The notes beneath the pieces were generated by a model. It made no database searches and had not been told where the DNA came from. It saw only the letters and a program-made list of their open reading frames with translations. Source: Candidatus Poribacteria bacterium (GTDB lineage Bacteria; Abyssobacteria; SURF-5). From it: DNA of 33,727 bases. The DNA is taken from positions 1-33,727 of the forward strand of contig JACRIR010000221.1 in NCBI GenBank assembly GCA_016215705.1, in the 5' to 3' direction. Below, piece by piece: positions 1 through 33,727 of this stretch (position 1 is its first letter; each line of letters opens with the position of its first letter). The position numbers and the translations under genes were made by a program.

Positions 1-90
1 ATTATAGATGCACAGGAAACCAGCGCAACGGTATCCCCTTGGGATAATGACAAGGCGGCGAGCCGCAGGGATTTTCGGGGGATTTCGCTT

Positions 91-2970
91 TTGTTCACGA
101 CGCGCTACTTCACGCTTCGACCTTTGGCTTTCAAGGTCTTCCTTGTCTTCCTTATCGGCATCTTGTCCGTCATCCCACCTTGCATGGAACAGGTTTCTGC
201 CGCTGACATAATAGTCGACAACAAATCCTCGTTGGTGACATATACAGGAGACTGGCCGAATTCGACTCTTGTTCCAGGATATTACAGCTCGAACTACCAG
301 TACAACCTGGCCGGAACCGGTCTCGATAAAGCAACGTGGACCGTCACCCTCTCTAGTCCGGGGAATTACAGGGTTTGGGCGTGGTGGTCCTCGCCGTACA
401 GCACCCGCCCTTCCAATGCCCCGTTCCGGATAGTCCATTTCGGGGGCGAAACGACCGTTCGGGTTGACCAGCGGGTCAACGGAGGAAAGTGGAACGAACT
501 TGCAGTGCGTTATTTTGAAGCCGGTGCCGCAAAGATCATCCTGTCCGATGATGCCGACGGCAACGTAATCGCCGATGCGATCCGGTTTGAGTACGTCGGA
601 TCCGTACCCCCAACGCTCCAAGCAGAGTTCACGGCTACAAACGCGGCAGGGCCGGTTCCGCTTCCCGTTTCGTTTATCGATCAGTCCCTTGGAAACGTGA
701 CGAATTGGAATTGGAATTTCGGTGATAATACATCCAGCACGGAAAAAAATCCTGTACATACATATACCTACCCCGGCAACTACACTGTGACCTTGTCGAT
801 TCAAGGACCGGACGGGAAGGACACCAAGGTCAAGGCAGATTTTATCACCGCCATTCCATATGCCTATGAGTTCATCCCTCCCATCGACACCAAGTACAAG
901 ACCTCGATCTTTCAGGATTTCGGAAATCCGAGGGAAGGAATTGGGCTACACACCGGAGAAGATTGGGGGGTCTATGAACCGGATGTCCCTGTCTTGGCGG
1001 TGGGAGATGGCGTGGTCGAGGACTCTCGCGATCTGGATCCCGGCTTCGGAAACATGATTGTGCTCAAGCATCTGCTTCCAGGCGGCTCCCATGTGTACTC
1101 TTTGGTCAGCCACATGGCGACTCCCGTCCAGGCGAGCTTTCCGTACGGCAAGGTGGTGCGGAAAGGCGAGGTTCTCGGAACCGTTGGCGAAACCGGATGG
1201 ACACCGTCGGGACTCCACATACACCTGCAATTCATGCAGTCCCCTTACGCGCTGGACGGATATGCGAATTCGCTGTCATCGTATAGAGACCCCTCTGACT
1301 TCATTTTCAGCCACAGACGTTTTACTCCCGATGTGATCATCGTCGACAACGAGGACCCCAAGTTCCTGACTATCGGAACCTGGAATTTCAACGATGCTCG
1401 TAGCGACACCTATTCCGTCAGTTACCTCGCGAGCGGGGCAGGCCTTGGGGAGAATAGCGCGGCCTGGACATTCACGGTGCATGATTCCGGGATCTACAAC
1501 GTTTATGCATGGTGGACGGGATGGACCGGGAGAGCTACCGATGCGAAATACAGAATATCGCACGCCGGCGGCGAGAATATCTCTGTGGTGAGTCAGTCCG
1601 CAAACTCGGGAAGGTGGAACTATCTCGGAACCTTCGAATTCTGGCCAGGCGAATTCAGCGTGGCCCTGATGAACGACGCAACGGGGAGCGTGTCCGCCGA
1701 CGCCATCAAATTGGTAAAAACAGGAGCATTGGACGTCTGCTCCGACGGCACGGTGTTTGGAGAACCCTCGGTGCGGAAACCCAAATATTGTCTCGTCACC
1801 GATTACCTAACGGACAAGAGCCTGACATACGGCTGCAATCCCGGCGGCGTTCCGCAAACGGACGGGACGTGTTCAAAGTCGGAACCCGGAATCATAATGG
1901 ACAATGGGGACCCAGGATTTTCGACTACCGGGGTCTGGAACCCGAGTACGACGGTGATGGGATTTTACGGATCGAATTACCTCTATACCGACGCCGGTTC
2001 GGGGGGTACGGCGACGTGGGCTGCGGTCCCCAAAGTTGCCGGCACCTACGAAGTATTCATCTGGGACCGCGATAAGCTTTCGTATATCGATCCCTCTGAC
2101 CGAGCGACCGACGCAATGTACAGGATTCGACACGCCTTCGGCACGACCTCCGTGACCGTAAATCAGAAGCATATCTACAAGGAATGGATAAGCCTTGGAG
2201 CCTACTATTTCGATGCGAATGTCCCCGCGACGGTCACTGTCGGCAGTAGTTCCATCGGCGCCGTGATCGCGGATGCTGCCCGCTTCCTCTTTATCAGCAC
2301 GCAGCTCCCTCCGCCGAAAGCGGAATTCTCGGCCGCACCTCTCACGGGCGACCTGCCCTTGAAGGTACAATTCTCCGACCTTTCCTCGGGAAAGATTACC
2401 CAATACTTGTGGGACTTCGGAGACGGGACGAGCAACTCCCTCCAGAATCCGTCCCATACGTATGCAACGGCAGGCGAATTCACGGTCAGCCTGACCGTGG
2501 CGGGGCCCAGCGGTTCCAACACCACCACCAAGACCGCTTACATTTGGGTTACAGACCCCACCATCCGCCCCATGGTGATCGATAACGAGGACCCGGGGTT
2601 CAGCGTCGTCGGCGACTGGCCGAACTCGACCCTCGTCAGCGGCTACTATGGGACGAACTACCAGTACAATCTGGCGGACGCGGGGAACGACCGCGCCACG
2701 TGGACGTTCAACATTCCCGTAGCCGGAAATTTCAGGGTTTCCGCCTGGTGGTCCTCGCCGTTCAGCACAAGGCCATCGAACGCTCCCTTCACGGTTCAGC
2801 ACGCCGCTGGAAACACCACGGTGCGGGTGGACCAGAGGGTGAACGGAGAAAAATGGAACTTATTGGGCACTTTCCCGTTCAATCCTGGGGCAGCACAGGT
2901 GTTTTTGACGGACAATGCCGACGGGAACGTCATCGCGGATGCTGTCATGCTCGAATACGTTCCGAAATAG
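91..2970 (+). CDS. Secreted multidomain M23 peptidase with golvesin-type and PKD domains
   Basis: This 959-residue secreted protein is probably a cell-wall or matrix hydrolase or binding protein. A signal peptide (basic residues, hydrophobic stretch at about 16-30, cleavage near VSA-AD at 37-38) is followed by golvesin-like domain 1 (about 40-168), PKD 1 (about 175-255), an M23/LytM domain (about 265-405), golvesin-like 2 (about 414-545), a Cys-rich linker (about 548-597), golvesin-like 3 (about 600-737), PKD 2 (about 739-823) and golvesin-like 4 (828-959). The M23 zinc and catalytic residues are all present: HTGED (H287, D291), SHM (H341) and HIH (H376, H378), so activity is likely. The start is TTG. 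The frame stays open to the window edge, so a start further upstream cannot be excluded, but the TTG gives a well-formed signal peptide. It converges on the EPS genes, with 18 bases between stop codons. The peptidase substrate (peptidoglycan or a surface peptide) is unknown. Confidence 0.85.
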   Translation: MFTTRYFTLRPLAFKVFLVFLIGILSVIPPCMEQVSAADIIVDNKSSLVTYTGDWPNSTLVPGYYSSNYQYNLAGTGLDKATWTVTLSSPGNYRVWAWWSSPYSTRPSNAPFRIVHFGGETTVRVDQRVNGGKWNELAVRYFEAGAAKIILSDDADGNVIADAIRFEYVGSVPPTLQAEFTATNAAGPVPLPVSFIDQSLGNVTNWNWNFGDNTSSTEKNPVHTYTYPGNYTVTLSIQGPDGKDTKVKADFITAIPYAYEFIPPIDTKYKTSIFQDFGNPREGIGLHTGEDWGVYEPDVPVLAVGDGVVEDSRDLDPGFGNMIVLKHLLPGGSHVYSLVSHMATPVQASFPYGKVVRKGEVLGTVGETGWTPSGLHIHLQFMQSPYALDGYANSLSSYRDPSDFIFSHRRFTPDVIIVDNEDPKFLTIGTWNFNDARSDTYSVSYLASGAGLGENSAAWTFTVHDSGIYNVYAWWTGWTGRATDAKYRISHAGGENISVVSQSANSGRWNYLGTFEFWPGEFSVALMNDATGSVSADAIKLVKTGALDVCSDGTVFGEPSVRKPKYCLVTDYLTDKSLTYGCNPGGVPQTDGTCSKSEPGIIMDNGDPGFSTTGVWNPSTTVMGFYGSNYLYTDAGSGGTATWAAVPKVAGTYEVFIWDRDKLSYIDPSDRATDAMYRIRHAFGTTSVTVNQKHIYKEWISLGAYYFDANVPATVTVGSSSIGAVIADAARFLFISTQLPPPKAEFSAAPLTGDLPLKVQFSDLSSGKITQYLWDFGDGTSNSLQNPSHTYATAGEFTVSLTVAGPSGSNTTTKTAYIWVTDPTIRPMVIDNEDPGFSVVGDWPNSTLVSGYYGTNYQYNLADAGNDRATWTFNIPVAGNFRVSAWWSSPFSTRPSNAPFTVQHAAGNTTVRVDQRVNGEKWNLLGTFPFNPGAAQVFLTDNADGNVIADAVMLEYVPK
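202..594 (+). repeat. Golvesin-type domain, copy 1 (near-duplicate of copy 4)
   Basis: This stretch encodes the first golvesin/Xly-CBD-like beta-sandwich. It shares long runs with copy 4 at 2572-2967, including DWPNSTLV, NYQYNLA, AWWSSP, STRPSNAPF, VRVDQRVNG and ADGNVIADA. Copies 2 and 3 (about 1330-1725 and 1888-2300) are much more divergent. This suggests recent duplication or gene conversion between the outermost copies. Confidence 0.8.
2572..2967 (+). repeat. Golvesin-type domain, copy 4 (near-duplicate of copy 1)
   Basis: This is the C-terminal golvesin-like domain, closely similar to copy 1 at 202-594 at the protein level. It ends at the protein C-terminus, with no extra anchoring or sorting tail after it. 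Confidence 0.8.
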
Positions 2971-2988: not shown

Positions 2989-4038
2989 CTAGAAACCCGC
3001 CTCCAGGCACTTGATTATCTTGAACATCTCGTATGCCGTGACGAAATGCAAGCGCCAGCCGTTCTTGCCACATACGTCCTCCAGCAAACCATATAGGTGG
3101 TCCAACCCCCTTTCCTCAAGGAGATAACGCTGATTGCTTTCCTGGCATCCGTGGGTGTGAACCTTTATGAATAGGTGGTTCGGCATCCCCTTGACTTTCG
3201 GCGCGTATCTCTTCCACAGATGAACCCGGTGATCGGCCGCCGGGTGGTCCTGACATATCTCACTGTTTTCTATGCGGGGAAAGATGCCGAATTTCCTTGC
3301 GTACCAGTCAAGCCCGAGCGGCCCCTGCACGATCATCAAGTCTCCCCGTTGCGCTTTTCGCGCCTCCACGTCGATGCCGTCGTCGTGGGACTTCGGCAGG
3401 GCGGGATCTTCCACTGCATAATATATGCTGTTGATTTTTTTCGTCTGCGTATCGCTCGGCGCCGAAGGAAGGGTGAAATCCGCGTAGCAGCCTGTTTCTC
3501 CGAGAATCCGGATTTCGTCGTTAACACCGCAATATCGCCCGTCCTTCCGGGAGTTGTCCAGTGCCCAGTTCCCGTGCACGAACCCGTAAAGGATTCGTCC
3601 CTTTTCCTCCTCGCGGCGTAGAAGTCCGTGCTCCTCGTGAAGCCGGTCCCGGAATGAAACCAGTTTCCGCCTAAGCCCTTCCGACGTGTCCCGGTCATGG
3701 TGAAGATGGATTTCGACGTCTCCGAAACCCTCCTTGCAGTGGCGGGCCAACATCGCGATGATTTCCGCGTCGTATTCCTCCTCCGGGAAAAAAAAGGTGT
3801 GTCTTGGGGATCTTCCTTCCGAATCCTTGAATCGGGAAGCGATTTCAGGATACCGGGATATCCAATTTGCCGTTCTGCGCAGCGCCTCCGATTTGCCTGC
3901 TCCGTTCCAGTAGGGCTCGAAATGGTCCGCGATCATGAAATAGAGTCGGATCGGAGTGCCGGTGTCCAAAGGCTCATGCGCGAACAGGGACCTAAGGTAG
4001 GAGCCGATCCAGATCTTTATGTTTTTCTTCTCGAACAT
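2989..4038 (-). CDS. Divergent polysaccharide deacetylase-like protein
   Basis: This 349-residue soluble protein has no signal peptide. It has features of the NodB-like (beta/alpha)7 fold found in EPS loci: an N-terminal strand IRLYFMIADHFEPYW, a His-rich segment VEIHLHHDRDT, a VHGNW segment and a VHTHG segment near the C-terminus. The classical TFDDG motif is absent, so catalysis is uncertain. The frame runs upstream to 4377, inside the preceding gene. The ATG at 4038 (MFEKKN) is chosen because the family-like sequence begins there and it lies 77 bases after the upstream stop, although its ribosome site is weak. It is the last gene of the minus-strand unit and follows two secreted beta-helix proteins. 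A role in polysaccharide modification is inferred from context. Confidence 0.65.
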   Translation of the reverse strand: MFEKKNIKIWIGSYLRSLFAHEPLDTGTPIRLYFMIADHFEPYWNGAGKSEALRRTANWISRYPEIASRFKDSEGRSPRHTFFFPEEEYDAEIIAMLARHCKEGFGDVEIHLHHDRDTSEGLRRKLVSFRDRLHEEHGLLRREEEKGRILYGFVHGNWALDNSRKDGRYCGVNDEIRILGETGCYADFTLPSAPSDTQTKKINSIYYAVEDPALPKSHDDGIDVEARKAQRGDLMIVQGPLGLDWYARKFGIFPRIENSEICQDHPAADHRVHLWKRYAPKVKGMPNHLFIKVHTHGCQESNQRYLLEERGLDHLYGLLEDVCGKNGWRLHFVTAYEMFKIIKCLEAGF

Positions 4039-4115: not shown

Positions 4116-5495
4116 CTATTCCAACTTCAGGTTGTAGGGCGGGCCGGGGATCTTGTTCGAAGAGGGTGTCGCGAACTCGTAGCAACCGATGTCGTACCCG
4201 TTCCCTTGGGGTCTTCCGTTCCCCGCAAGATCGTAGCTCAAGTCGGGAACCGCAGTCCCCGAATCGATCGCACGACTCCCGGCCGCGAGGCGATAGTCGT
4301 TCGAGGCGGGAGCCAGAAACAATTCCCCCGCTGTGGCGACAAACGAGGATCGGTCCTGTCCATACTGGGTCCGCCACTCGGCAAGACTGATGAGATCTCC
4401 CGAGGGATTTTCGATCCGCGTCAGGATATTGTAATCGCTGTCCATTCCCGTGATGCTGTTCCCGTCAACCGCCATGCTGTCGGCGGTCCCCAGGTGGATG
4501 GCGATGTTGTTCCGCAAGTACCCGTGCGTGCTGCCCGACCGGAACGCGATGCCGTGCCGGGATCCTGCCGGCATGACGATCGTGTTATGGGTGATCCTGT
4601 TGTGATGCGACCCGGCGGAGGCGTCGACCCGGTACATGTTGATTCCGGTGGTGTTGTTCCCGTACAGGAGGTTGTTCCGGATCGTGGCGTAGGCAGCGCC
4701 GTCGAGCTCGATGGCACCGCTTCCGTTCCGCCCGTTTCCGTACAAGACGTTGTTCTCGATCAATGCGTTCGTGATCACCCCGTCGCCTCCCTGGGACGCA
4801 TCGGCATTGATCTGGATCCCCGCCTCGTCGTTGTCGTGCACCCGGTTCCCCCGGATGACAGGGTCGTCGGCGGAATTGGCCACATAGATCCCGTGCTGGC
4901 CTTTTGAGTTCGACACCTCGTTGTACTCGATGACCACACCGGCAGCGAAGGAGGTCGTGATACCGACCCAGCCCGCGTTCGAAACCCGGTTGCTGCGAAC
5001 GATCACCCCTCGCCGGTAATCGCTCGCCGTTCCGGAGACGCGAATTCCGCGTGAGGGGACGGACGCGTCCGCCGCCATGACGTCAATCGCGAACCCGTCG
5101 ATGGTCACGTAATCCCCGAGGACTGTGACTGCCGTATATCTTTCGTCATAGGTTTCGTATCCAAGGATCCTCGCTCCCGATCCGACCGCCTTGAACTCGA
5201 TCCTCGCGGATGCCGTGCCGGACCGGGTCACATGAAACGGAGCGTAGTCGCCGTCTTCGACCATGACGGTGTCTCCTGCCGACACTCTCCCCGCCGCATA
5301 TTGAACGCTCGACCAGGGAGCTGCTTGCGTCCCCGCATTCCCATCGTTGCCCCGTGGTGGTTGAGCCACATAATAGACGGCCGCATTCCCGGAATCCGGG
5401 AAAACCGCGGAGACGGCGACGAGGGGGACCAAGGCCCAGAACCAGGCCTGGACCGGGAAAAACAGCGTTCGGAAGCGATGATGTCCCGTTCTCAT
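4116..5495 (-). CDS. Secreted right-handed parallel beta-helix protein
   Basis: This 459-residue protein has an N-terminal signal or hydrophobic segment (about 12-36) followed by YYVAQPPRGNDGNAGT, the typical entry strand of extracellular parallel beta-helix proteins. Repeated Asn-rich coils (IENNVLYGNGRNGSGA, IRNNLLYGNNTTG, VIRGNRVHDNDEAGI) match the pectate-lyase/PbH1 repeat style from about 100 to 400. Such folds act as polysaccharide lyases, epimerases or binding proteins; which applies here cannot be told from sequence. It starts 13 bases after the stop of another beta-helix gene, so the two are co-transcribed. The C-terminus ends in a short Pro-containing tail (KIPGPPYNLKLE) that resembles the tail of its neighbour. 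Likely substrate: the polysaccharide made by this locus (inference). Confidence 0.8.
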   Translation of the reverse strand: MRTGHHRFRTLFFPVQAWFWALVPLVAVSAVFPDSGNAAVYYVAQPPRGNDGNAGTQAAPWSSVQYAAGRVSAGDTVMVEDGDYAPFHVTRSGTASARIEFKAVGSGARILGYETYDERYTAVTVLGDYVTIDGFAIDVMAADASVPSRGIRVSGTASDYRRGVIVRSNRVSNAGWVGITTSFAAGVVIEYNEVSNSKGQHGIYVANSADDPVIRGNRVHDNDEAGIQINADASQGGDGVITNALIENNVLYGNGRNGSGAIELDGAAYATIRNNLLYGNNTTGINMYRVDASAGSHHNRITHNTIVMPAGSRHGIAFRSGSTHGYLRNNIAIHLGTADSMAVDGNSITGMDSDYNILTRIENPSGDLISLAEWRTQYGQDRSSFVATAGELFLAPASNDYRLAAGSRAIDSGTAVPDLSYDLAGNGRPQGNGYDIGCYEFATPSSNKIPGPPYNLKLE

Positions 5496-5508: not shown

Positions 5509-7149
5509 CTAATTCACCCTGATTGCCTGTGGAGCGGCCGGGATCTTCGACGGAGGCGGAGAGGTGGTGTATTCCGGCGGCGTCGGATTTCCCAGGTAGG
5601 ACCATATATAATTCGTCAATGTCTGCCCTGTTGCGCAAAAGCCCCGTTGCGTATCGTTTGTGGACGGAACGGCACCCGTCGGCGGGGGATTGGACTCTGA
5701 GAAAACCGCCTTGATCTGGTCCTGATATGGCCAGGGCCACACGGGGACACCGGTCAGGGAGTCGTATCCCGCCTCGCCCCAGAGGGTCCCATCCGCCCCC
5801 CAACGATTCACGATGGTCGCGCCGATGTTTCCCCCGTCGTCACCCGCATTGTACAGACCGCTGTCCGCTTCGACGCGCAGGATGTACTTCTGCTTTCCGA
5901 AGATGAGCTGGGTCACTGCGTTGGTTCCATACGCCTGGGTGACCGGATAGAACCCGTTATTCGTTACGACGTTCCACCCTTCGCTTCCGCCTGCGTAGAG
6001 CGCCCCGTTGTTGTAGAAAAGGGTGTTTTTCAGGACATGCCCTGTCCCGCTCGAATATTGGCCGATTGCAGTTCCGTTTCCACCGATTGTACACCGGTTC
6101 AACGTCAGCCCGGCGCCGGAACCCTGAGCCTGGATCCCCATATCCCCCGTAGGTCCGCTGTCCCACATGACCGTGTCCGTCAAAGTCATCCCCGTGCCGT
6201 TCTGTTCTTTCGCGAAGATCGCCGCATAATAGGAATCCACCTTGAGTGCGATGCACCCGCGCCAAGTGACGTTCTTTGCATTCTTCGGGTTGTACCACCC
6301 CCCGTAGGTCCTCTCCCCTCCCGTCATGCCGGTGTTGTGGCTGTCGATAACAATGCAGTTCTGGAAGAGGATATCCTGGGCGCCATATCCCGAGTTGTTT
6401 CCGTACACGCAGAAGGACGCCTTCGGCTGTGTCGTGGCGGTGTAGTCGTTTCTCACGACGCATCGGCGGTAAATGATGTATTGCGAAGTATCCGAAGGTC
6501 CACCGACATAGAAGCCGTATCGCATCTGTCCGACCAGAGCACAATCCTCCCAAAGAACATAGGAGGAACCGGTGGTGGCGACGACCTCATCGTAGTCATT
6601 CGTGATCCCCGAGCGTTTCACGATCAGTTTTTTCACTTTGACGTGATTGGACCCTTCGACGGAAACAGTGGATTCGGGACCGCCTCCGCTGTGATCTACG
6701 ACAAATCCCTCGACCAGTATGTAGGAGCGATTGATCAAGCGGATGTAACTGTCCTCGTAATCTGGAGACGAGGTTCCCTTGTTTATCCTGACGCCGAAGG
6801 GGGTTTCGGCCCTGATTACCGTGTATGCCCCCGGAGAACCGTTGGGGGGCTGTCCGTAGCCCCGTCCGCCGTAACGACCGATAAAATTATTCTGCCCGGT
6901 GTATACCCCGTTCTTCACGATCAATGTGTCCCCGCCGATCATCCTGGAATACCCGAAACCGATACTCCCCCAAGGTTTGGCCGACGATCCGTCGCCCGTC
7001 GTGTCGCTCCCTGTGAGAGAGACGTAGTAAATCGCGCCCGCGTGAGAATTTGGGATCCCCACGACTGCCGACAGCGCAAGCGACGATGCAAGAGCAATGA
7101 CAAGCAGGAAGGGGTGAGAAATCCCCGATTCCCTGAATTTACTGTTCAA
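5509..7149 (-). CDS. Secreted right-handed parallel beta-helix protein
   Basis: This 546-residue protein has a signal peptide (hydrophobic stretch about 14-32, then NSHAGA) followed by YYVSLTGSDTTGDGSS and AKPWGSI, the characteristic N-terminal strand of secreted beta-helix carbohydrate-active proteins. Repeat coils such as YILVEGFVVDHSGG and ILFQNCIVIDSHNTG run through the middle, and the last 60 residues are Pro-rich. The start is TTG at 7149, supported by an excellent ribosome site (AAGGAGG, 7 bases upstream). It is the first gene of a three-gene unit (with the next beta-helix protein and a deacetylase-like protein), preceded by a strong sigma-54 promoter candidate. The tail KIPAAPQAIRVN resembles the tail of the next gene's product. 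A lyase, epimerase or matrix-binding role is possible; activity is not assignable. Confidence 0.82.
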   Translation of the reverse strand: MNSKFRESGISHPFLLVIALASSLALSAVVGIPNSHAGAIYYVSLTGSDTTGDGSSAKPWGSIGFGYSRMIGGDTLIVKNGVYTGQNNFIGRYGGRGYGQPPNGSPGAYTVIRAETPFGVRINKGTSSPDYEDSYIRLINRSYILVEGFVVDHSGGGPESTVSVEGSNHVKVKKLIVKRSGITNDYDEVVATTGSSYVLWEDCALVGQMRYGFYVGGPSDTSQYIIYRRCVVRNDYTATTQPKASFCVYGNNSGYGAQDILFQNCIVIDSHNTGMTGGERTYGGWYNPKNAKNVTWRGCIALKVDSYYAAIFAKEQNGTGMTLTDTVMWDSGPTGDMGIQAQGSGAGLTLNRCTIGGNGTAIGQYSSGTGHVLKNTLFYNNGALYAGGSEGWNVVTNNGFYPVTQAYGTNAVTQLIFGKQKYILRVEADSGLYNAGDDGGNIGATIVNRWGADGTLWGEAGYDSLTGVPVWPWPYQDQIKAVFSESNPPPTGAVPSTNDTQRGFCATGQTLTNYIWSYLGNPTPPEYTTSPPPSKIPAAPQAIRVN

Positions 7150-7156
7150 GAATTTT

Positions 7157-7163
7157 CCTCCTT
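7157..7163 (-). promoter_or_regulatory. Ribosome binding site deciding a TTG start
   Basis: AAGGAGG on the minus strand lies 7 bases before the TTG at 7149. This perfect Shine-Dalgarno fixes the unusual start codon of the first beta-helix gene. Confidence 0.8.
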
Positions 7164-7197
7164 CGCTTCACATAGTCCGAAAGCAAGCAATGTTCTG

Positions 7198-7212
7198 GCA
7201 AATATCATGCCA
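7198..7212 (-). promoter_or_regulatory. Sigma-54 (RpoN) -24/-12 promoter
   Basis: The minus strand reads TGGCATGATATTTGC, matching the consensus TGGCAC-N5-TTGC at 9 of 10 defined positions, with the required 10-base spacing between the GG (7211-7210) and the GC (7199-7198). Transcription would start near 7186, leaving a leader of about 37 bases before the TTG start at 7149. It lies in the largest intergenic gap of the window. The sigma-54 activator gene at the right edge of the window is a candidate regulator (inference). Confidence 0.68.
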
Positions 7213-7288
7213 TCAGGCGACCGGGGACAGCCCAAAAACCCCTTGGTTCTTCTTGGAAAATGATGTATCGCCCTCGTTGGTCGTCCGG

Positions 7289-7330
7289 TGAAATCCAAAA
7301 AATGAAATCCGATCACCAAAAATGAAATCG
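7289..7330 (-). repeat. TGAAATC direct repeats, candidate activator site
   Basis: On the plus strand TGAAATCC occurs at 7289-7296 and 7303-7310, and TGAAATCG at 7323-7330. The last two sit in longer copies, CCAAAAAATGAAATC (7295-7309) and CCAAAAATGAAATC (7316-7329), repeating about every 20-21 bases (two helical turns). GGTGA (7287-7291) and TCACC (7313-7317) form an inverted pair around the middle copy. The repeats end 36 bases after the upstream GT stop and lie about 77-118 bases upstream of the -24 element, a normal position for an enhancer bound by a sigma-54 activator. Confidence 0.45.
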
Positions 7331-7365
7331 ACGGCATGGGTGTACGCACGCTATTTCCACTGCCA

Positions 7366-8577
7366 TCAGGCAGGCGGATTCCTCGGTGTTGCATCAACAC
7401 CCCCCCGGGAAAGCAATTCGAGTGCTTTCCCGGCGTTGGCCTTCCAGTTATGGGTTTCGATGATATCGCGTCGTGCCTTCCGACCCATCGTTCTCCTGAG
7501 ATCGTCATCTCTCATCAGGCGGGCGATCTTCTCACGCATTTCGACCAGGTTTCCCGGAGAGAACAGGATACCGTTCTCTCCGTCCCGAATGACATCCGCA
7601 AGTGGGGGGAGGCGGGGTGCGATCACCGGAATTCCCATGGCCATATACTCGAACACCTTCATCGGGGACCCGTAATCGTTGGAATTCGGCATTACACCGA
7701 GATCCATGCAGGACAGGACCGTGGGAAGTTCCGGATGCGGCACGCTGCCCGTGAGAATGACCCGGTCCGAAACTCCCGACTTCATGGCGATCGAGGCGGC
7801 GACGTCCTTATCCGGACCCTCCCCCACCAGCATCAGATACAGATCGTCCCGTTCCCTCATCAGGGGAACAACAGCCTCCACGAGTCGAGGAACCGAATGC
7901 CAGGGATAGAATCCACCGACGAAGCCGATGACGATGCCTCCATCCCTGATTCGAAACCGTGATCTGGAGCCACATGCGCCGGGAACGTCGGGATCGAACA
8001 GGCACGGATCCGCCGCATTGGGGGTCAGTCGGATCCTTGCTTCCGGTACGCCCGAGGCGATCAATTCCCGGACCAGCGTGGAAGAAACCGCAACGAATCC
8101 CGTGGCTCTCCGGAGCAGAAATCTCTCCATCCGGCGCGCCACGGGATCGAGCGCTCGAGTTCTCTTCCTGAAGAGAGGGCTGGACGCCAAATAATTGATT
8201 TCGACGACGATCGGCACCCCCAGGCGGCGGGCGGCGATCACCCCGGCGATGCCGAAAAGGGAATACCGTTCGTAAAGCGCCTGACAAGAGGAGGCACGGT
8301 GGGATTTCCACAAGCTCCACAGCGCCTTCCCGTTATAGAGGAGCTCCAATAACTCGAACACCAACTCGGGGGCGTACCGGCTGATGATCCGGTAAAAGAG
8401 TTTCCTCCATCCCGGGGAATCGCCATCCCGCGGACTTTCTTCTCCCCCCCGGGCCCAATGGTCGGGAGAGACGATGTCGATGCTGTGTCCCCAATCGCGA
8501 AATCCGTCGATCATGCCCCGAATGTGGACCCCCTCAACCCCTTCGCCGCGAGTCCTATGGAGGTAAAGGATTTTCAT
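7366..8577 (-). CDS. Glycosyltransferase family 4 (GT-B fold)
   Basis: This 403-residue cytoplasmic glycosyltransferase transfers a sugar from a nucleotide donor to the lipid-linked EPS repeat unit. The N-terminal acceptor domain begins MKILYLHRTRGEGVEG. The donor half shows VIGFVGGFYPWHSVPRLVEA, then LMLVGEGPD, GSVPHPELPTVLSCMDLGVM and KVFEYMAMGIPVIAP, ending with a DGENGILF loop typical of GT4. The frame begins upstream at 8616, but ATG 8577 is chosen: it is the natural GT4 beginning and gives an ATGA overlap with the stop of the preceding GT (8574), so the two are translationally coupled. Sugar and linkage are unknown. It is the last gene before the 216-base gap carrying the sigma-54 promoter. 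Confidence 0.88.
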   Translation of the reverse strand: MKILYLHRTRGEGVEGVHIRGMIDGFRDWGHSIDIVSPDHWARGGEESPRDGDSPGWRKLFYRIISRYAPELVFELLELLYNGKALWSLWKSHRASSCQALYERYSLFGIAGVIAARRLGVPIVVEINYLASSPLFRKRTRALDPVARRMERFLLRRATGFVAVSSTLVRELIASGVPEARIRLTPNAADPCLFDPDVPGACGSRSRFRIRDGGIVIGFVGGFYPWHSVPRLVEAVVPLMRERDDLYLMLVGEGPDKDVAASIAMKSGVSDRVILTGSVPHPELPTVLSCMDLGVMPNSNDYGSPMKVFEYMAMGIPVIAPRLPPLADVIRDGENGILFSPGNLVEMREKIARLMRDDDLRRTMGRKARRDIIETHNWKANAGKALELLSRGGVDATPRNPPA

Positions 8578-32992: not shown

Positions 32993-33727
32993 CTAATCCT
33001 CGTTCAATCCGCACTCTTTGATCTTGTATAGAAGCGCTTTATAACTGATATCCAGGAGCTTGGCTGCCTTCCGTCGGTTCCAGCGCGTCTGTCGGAGCAC
33101 GCGCTCGATCATTACGCGCTCCGCCTGGCGCTGGGCGATTTTCGCCACTTCCTTCAAGGTCCCTTGTTCCGGCAGGTGAATATCCTCGCCATCGGGTTCT
33201 CGTGTATCGTCATTTTGGCCGCGAAGGTTTTTCGCTGCCGGCCGCGAGGCCTGGAACCTGACGATCTCCTCCTGCTCGTCGCCATATGACGCGTAGGAGC
33301 CGTTTTCCTTCTTCCGCATGAACTCGGAAATCAGCTGGCTCTCGTTCCCGAGGATCACGAACCGCTTGATGTTGTTCTCGAGCTCCCGCACGTTTCCCGG
33401 CCAGGAGTAGTTGAGGAACATATCGGTGAGACGGGGGGAGATCTTTGCCCGTTCGCGGTTGTACATCTCGGAATACCGCGTGAGGAAGTAATCGACCAGG
33501 AGCGGGATGTCGTCCTTGCGTTCGCGCAGGGGGGGCAGAACGATGTTCACCACATTGATCCGGTAGAACAGGTCGCGGCGGAAGCAGCTCTCTTCCACCA
33601 TCCGCTCCAGGTTCTTGTTGGTGGCGGTCAGTATCCGGCAGTTGACCTTGACCTCCCTTTCCCCGCCGATACGGAAGAACTGCTTCTCCTGGAGGACGTG
33701 GAGGAGCTTCGACTGCAGGTCCATGTG
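32993..33727 (-). CDS. Sigma-54 dependent regulator, C-terminal part (truncated by window edge)
   Basis: Only the last 244 or so codons are present and the frame runs off the right edge. The visible part is the end of the AAA+ sigma-54 activation domain (LQSKLLHVLQEKQFFRIGGE, ILTATNKNLE, FRRDLFYRINVVNIVLPPLR, ERKDDIPLLVDYFL, SWPGNVRELENNIKRFVIL), a linker and a Fis-type helix-turn-helix (RWNRRKAAKLLDISYKALLY). This is the NtrC family; the receiver or sensor domain would lie outside the window. It acts on DNA as an activator of sigma-54 promoters, and the strong candidate at 7198-7212 is a plausible target. It lies 60 bases upstream of the export lipoprotein gene, in the same direction. Confidence 0.93.
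   Translation of the reverse strand, partial: HMDLQSKLLHVLQEKQFFRIGGEREVKVNCRILTATNKNLERMVEESCFRRDLFYRINVVNIVLPPLRERKDDIPLLVDYFLTRYSEMYNRERAKISPRLTDMFLNYSWPGNVRELENNIKRFVILGNESQLISEFMRKKENGSYASYGDEQEEIVRFQASRPAAKNLRGQNDDTREPDGEDIHLPEQGTLKEVAKIAQRQAERVMIERVLRQTRWNRRKAAKLLDISYKALLYKIKECGLNED

Follow-up and report, generated by a model that had tools for sequence, protein, structure and literature searches.

The best described counterparts of the locus analysed here are the floc-forming bacteria which possess XrtA and the PrsK/PrsR pair (Haft et al. 2006, PMC1569441; pepA of Aquincola tertiaricarbonis, PMC9850573). In those, a secreted-protein gene near the EPS genes follows a large gap and a -24/-12 promoter; the distance to the start codon ranges from 23 to 221 nt (mean 71). 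The cis-element of the PEP-CTERM genes also contains a motif 1, ending in TTTACA, 32–92 nt upstream of the -24/-12 motif (PMC1569441). In Myxococcus xanthus, the EPS locus encodes an NtrC-type response regulator, EpsI/Nla24, an activator with AAA+ and Fis-type domains adjoining an export gene (PMC4877007). On a more general level, dedicated sigma-54 activators are described for EPS, biofilm and surface components of the bacterial exterior (Francke et al. 2011, PMC3162934; Desulfovibrio vulgaris regulome, PMC4641369); in the available parts of these two sources, the unit of beta-helix and deacetylase-like genes presented below is not named.

The window, i.e. the whole stretch of DNA that was analysed (33,727 nt), shares with the XrtA floc formers a predicted promoter of the same -24/-12 type, a large gap, and a gene for a secreted protein near EPS genes, and its distance of 48 nt to the start codon is inside the published range. 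However, the unit comprises three genes instead of one, its beta-helix products have no PEP-CTERM tail, and the only exosortase of the genome is encoded on another contig (C55). The TTTACA of motif 1 is absent both from the gap of the window and before all 47 listed sites of the same genome. The analogy to XrtA systems drawn in the initial annotation is therefore kept for the mechanism and dropped for the PrsR enhancer motif, the sorting tails and the exosortase. Concerning EpsI/Nla24, the window contains an activator of like architecture, with AAA+ and Fis-type domains and adjoining an export gene in an EPS locus. The window includes only its C-terminus, and a receiver domain is known here from full-length relatives; the candidate target promoter in the window belongs to a surface-protein unit located at the cluster's far end. 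A control element of a known kind appears to have an output unlike the usual one, namely surface proteins other than those of the related systems. The coordinates of the features are presented in Table 1.

Table 1. Features of the locus and their positions in the window
Feature	Positions	Strand	Remarks
Third gene: EPS-linked, deacetylase-like fold, 349 aa	2989..4038	-	start ATG 4038
Second gene: secreted right-handed beta-helix protein, 459 aa	4116..5495	-	ATG 5495, 13 nt after first gene
First gene: secreted right-handed beta-helix protein, 546 aa	5509..7149	-	TTG start, signal peptide, no PEP-CTERM tail
Gap of 216 nt, largest in window, between glycosyltransferase gene and beta-helix unit	7150..7365	-	
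Predicted sigma-54 promoter TGGCAT-N5-TTGC (TGGCATGATATTTGC)	7198..7212	-	-24 GG 7211/7210, -12 GC 7199/7198
Candidate enhancer: two copies of GATTTCATTTTT and a third GATTTCA	7289..7329	-	putative function
Perfect inverted repeat GGGAAAGC-N9-GCTTTCCC	7407..7431		inside 3' end of glycosyltransferase gene
Sigma-54 activator, C-terminal part (AAA+ end, lid, Fis-type helix-turn-helix)	32993..33727	-	cut by contig end

The sequence, strand, coordinates and spacing initially given for the promoter are all as found at 7212–7198 on the minus strand: the GG-N10-GC spacing is exact, and the sole mismatch to TGGCAC-N5-TTGC is a C to T change at position 6. TGGCAT is also found in intergenic sites of the Salmonella sigma-54 binding study, including those of hypA, yeaG and STM2360 (PMC3844500). 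Transcription is predicted to start at about 7186, 12 nt past the GC, with a leader of about 37 nt. The TTG start with a perfect Shine-Dalgarno sequence, placed about 49 bases further on, is present as well (48 nt lie between the site and 7149, and AGGAGG is located 7 nt upstream of the TTG). The bases after the -12 element are CAGA, and the T-rich positions expected there are not matched. An exact 11-nt direct repeat, TGCCATCAGGC, is found at 7208–7218, where it overlaps the -24 element, and at 7361–7371, at the stop codon of the glycosyltransferase gene.

By motif count alone the site is not special within the window, which contains 23 sigma-54 matches with two mismatches vs 21 expected, i.e. 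no excess; across the whole genome, matches with at most one mismatch (337) are barely above those of a reversed control pattern (315). The distribution of the motif relative to genes was analysed in a sample of 80 stretches of the same genome (1.43 Mb, or 1.47 Mb including the window), using gene calls from a home-made hexamer caller which was checked on the window only. Based on these calls, TGGCAT-N5-TTGC is found 11 times in upstream gaps of the correct orientation (50 per Mb, the window site included) vs twice in coding DNA (0.8 per Mb), of which there is 11 times more, and never in gaps of the wrong orientation within the 1.47 Mb. The TGGCAT counts were repeated on stretches chosen without regard to sites and amount there to three upstream and none in 1.09 million coding positions. 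For TGGCAC-N5-TTGC the counts in the 1.47 Mb are 20 in oriented upstream gaps, five in coding DNA and none in the wrong orientation, and are biased upward, since some of the 80 stretches had been picked for exact sites.

When a matrix is trained on the 44 remaining upstream sites, with the window site left out, it gives 7212–7198 a score of 14.2. Sites scoring at least 14 in the sample comprise 46 upstream, 12 coding and six other ones, with none in the wrong orientation, and at the level of 14.2 a site is found in 46 of the 501 oriented gaps of at least 150 nt vs one wrong-way. Among 5000 dinucleotide shuffles of 7150–7365, only seven reach the score of the site, and no sigma-54 score above 1.8 is found in the other gaps of the window. 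Most accepted sites of the genome score above 17, which places 7212–7198 in the weaker part of the distribution. Because the motif is enriched by position and few shuffles match its score, the site is very probably real in spite of belonging to this weaker tail. The genome encodes rpoN and about 31 clear AAA+ sigma-54 activator domains. The claim of a sigma-54 promoter before the beta-helix unit can accordingly be called probable, backed by the genome-specific enrichment and the matrix score, and we consider with good confidence that the site would serve the beta-helix/beta-helix/deacetylase-like unit (7149–2989).

The gap which contains the site is the largest of the window, as initially claimed, provided that ATG 5495 is taken as the start of the second beta-helix gene; the remaining gaps are at most 142 nt long. 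That the promoter drives the unit separately from the EPS genes holds insofar as no other gap of the window has a sigma-54 site; complete separation does not follow, since a search for intrinsic terminators between 7366 and 7149 gave none and the head of the EPS operon is located outside the window, past the contig end. Read-through from the EPS genes is possible for these same two reasons. At its strongest, this would mean that the unit is simply the tail of the EPS operon with no promoter of its own in use, and that the site is a chance match. The genes from 33727 to 2989 are indeed all on one strand, and neither sigma-70 hexamers nor any other sigma-70-type promoter was found in the gap. 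We nevertheless regard this as unlikely, given the enrichment of such sites in oriented upstream gaps, the 216 nt of this gap vs at most 142 nt elsewhere in the window, and the gap of 180–260 nt with a promoter at the same place in relatives.

Upstream of the site, the two copies of GATTTCATTTTT are located at 7329–7318 and 7309–7298, 20 bp apart, followed by the third GATTTCA at 7295–7289. Relative to the predicted start (7186), the cluster covers about -103 to -143, a usual place for an enhancer. Within 1.47 Mb of the same genome no second cluster of this type occurs, and searches of viral contigs, plasmids and 60 other genomes gave none either. An origin as part of a mobile element was considered and rejected, as no match was found in those sets. 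With no second occurrence in the fetched genome or in those sets, neither a regulon nor a mobile element can be assigned to the cluster. No enhancer motif common to this site and other promoters of the genome was found. The perfect inverted repeat at 7407–7431 could possibly be a distal activator site or form an RNA hairpin. Repeats of the form GGGAAA-N(0-16)-TTTCCC are found 10 times in the 1.47 Mb, three of them in the window (7407–7431, 12040 and 20940).

Concerning the products of the unit, the two beta-helix proteins are otherwise different but have alike short C-terminal tails, KIPAAPQAIRVN and NKIPGPPYNLKLE (5509–5550 and 4116–4160), which could represent either a sorting tail or what is left of a fibronectin-type strand. 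The tail pattern is matched by only these two of 1172 gene calls of the genome; the tails of Nitrospirota homologues read LPPPQNLRIISQ and SPPLNLKIITQ (L124:7780-7820 and L125:7870-7913). For the first beta-helix protein, no orthologue was found in two family members from the same phylum or in a scan of named genomes, and the matches from a profile search of 386 genomes were all partial and of a generic beta-helix kind. In the third product neither a signal peptide nor a Pfam match was seen. The structure predicted for it (pLDDT 87.8) has a weak likeness to polysaccharide deacetylases and to folds of the GH38/GH57 type (TM about 0.5), and on this model the label ‘deacetylase-like’ is a fair one. 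The family of the third gene, which has no Pfam model, is EPS-linked and has members in 174 stretches from named genomes across many phyla; these (2989–4038 in the window; L124–L203) share the invariant motifs DHxEP, HLHH, HGNW and CxxD. Downstream of the unit, a convergent gene (1–2970, plus strand) encodes a protein with M23 peptidase, two PKD and several golvesin-C domains.

In two Nitrospirota loci, L124 and L125, a beta-helix gene and then the third gene directly follow EPS glycosyltransferases, after gaps of about 260 and 180 nt, respectively. Both gaps contain a conserved TGTGA-N6-TCAC with a TATACT placed equally far downstream in each (about 30 nt counted from the centre), a layout which looks like a class II Crp-type promoter, and a Crp/Fnr regulator is encoded near L125. 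L124 also has a weak TGGTAT-N5-TTGC match (matrix score 11.9). In L125, a strong sigma-54 site (20.8) is located one gene further along and precedes a PEP-CTERM gene which is related to the floc protein PepA; true PrsK and PrsR are encoded nearby. Across 80 loci of the third-gene family, most free sigma-54 sites are located before PEP-CTERM genes (L125, and twice in L141); one is before a polymerase-like gene (L194), and none before a beta-helix unit. Homologues of both beta-helix proteins, convergent with a homologue of the third gene, are found in a betaproteobacterial locus (L191:9123-12903), in which no sigma-54 site was seen.

Since the two best relatives look Crp-type, conservation does not support sigma-54 control. 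On this comparison, a promoter of the unit's own appears conserved in position but not in type, and the use of sigma-54 may be particular to the lineage of the window. The Nitrospirota layout also raises the question of whether the unit has a promoter of another type, a Crp/Fnr-dependent sigma-70 one, with the sigma-54-like sequence being incidental or a palindrome for another regulator; a short palindrome, TGGCA-N7-TGCCA (7196–7212), does overlap the site. A Crp-type palindrome was rejected for the window, however, because the gap contains no TGTGA-N6-TCAC at up to two mismatches, and it is also free of sigma-70 hexamers, so that we consider such a promoter very improbable. A broader and rather doubtful proposal is that the beta-helix and deacetylase-like pair forms a conserved EPS accessory module which always has its own switch, the type of switch having been exchanged in evolution. 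It would be sigma-54 with an enhancer-binding activator in the lineage of the window and Crp-type sigma-70 in Nitrospirota, where one locus would have its sigma-54 promoter one gene further on, before the PEP-CTERM gene.

Returning to the sigma-54 promoter, an activator had been placed at the far upstream end of the locus. The gene is real, but only its last 243 residues are inside the window, the GAFTGA loop and any receiver region being outside. A query with the linker and helix-turn-helix gave relatives in nine other genomes out of 290 searched. A polysaccharide export gene is adjacent to the activator or follows shortly after it in 7 of the 11 relative loci that were fetched, as in the window. 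Most full-length relatives start with a receiver-like domain, GAFTGA is present in nine of the ten long ones, and sigma-54 sites scoring 18–22 precede several of the relatives' activator or EPS operons. Because a sigma-54 promoter is often found before the EPS operon of these relatives, the EPS operon of the window is itself likely to be under sigma-54 control. A group of such EPS-export-linked regulators (L215–L225), sometimes in tandem copies, combines a receiver, GAFTGA and a Fis helix-turn-helix similar to WNRKKAAKLLxISYKALLYKIKE. Upstream of the EPS activator operons of two other genomes (L227 and L230), GGGAAA-N4-TTTCCC occurs repeatedly; GGGAAA/TTTCCC as a common enhancer motif of the activator family was rejected, being clear only in two genomes of one family, and it was not transferred to the window.

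The local activator is the best candidate because its relatives adjoin export genes and have sigma-54 sites before their operons; we name this EPS-locus response-regulator family, with its truncated member, as the most likely source of the activator, at a probability just short of even. The suggestion that the locus is controlled by its own activator is hence retained in part: the association of the family with export genes and sigma-54 promoters stands for it, and the truncation, the lack of a shared enhancer motif and the roughly 31 activators of the genome against it. Within the same sigma-54 reading, it is a substantial possibility, although not the expected one, that another of these 31 acts on the promoter, e.g. 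the response regulator of the XrtA locus on contig C55. That locus has three sigma-54 sites before secreted or surface-type proteins and encodes both the XrtA-type deacetylase and a paralogue of the third gene (40% identity); activators and their targets are, on the other hand, often in one locus, and the EPS-locus family is tied to EPS export genes. The C55 response regulator, a related one, scores 404 against PrsR (TIGR02915), below the cutoff of 502.6, and TIGR02916 (PrsK) is not among the best 25 matches of the C55 kinase. PEP-CTERM matches above cutoff are limited to two in the genome, on C106 and C255. As a parallel within the same organism, C55 supports control of EPS-associated secreted proteins by sigma-54.

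For the use of the promoter, the extent of the operon and the binding and identity of the activator we infer the following course. RpoN-RNA polymerase would wait as a closed complex at 7212–7198 until an NtrC-type activator, bound upstream and perhaps at the GATTTCATTTTT repeats, opened the complex by ATP hydrolysis. Transcription would then proceed from about 7186 through the two beta-helix genes and the deacetylase-like gene (7149 to 2989), and a basal level may be added by read-through from the EPS operon.

The comparison brings out two families: the widespread EPS-linked one of the third gene, for which Pfam has no model, and an activator family linked to EPS export, with sigma-54 promoters before several of its operons. 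If the proposed control is true, sigma-54 regulation in EPS loci would reach beyond PEP-CTERM proteins to a beta-helix and deacetylase-like module, and this extension would fall in a little-sampled bacterial phylum. It would also allow a clear test of whether the synthesis of the polymer is switched apart from the proteins associated with it.
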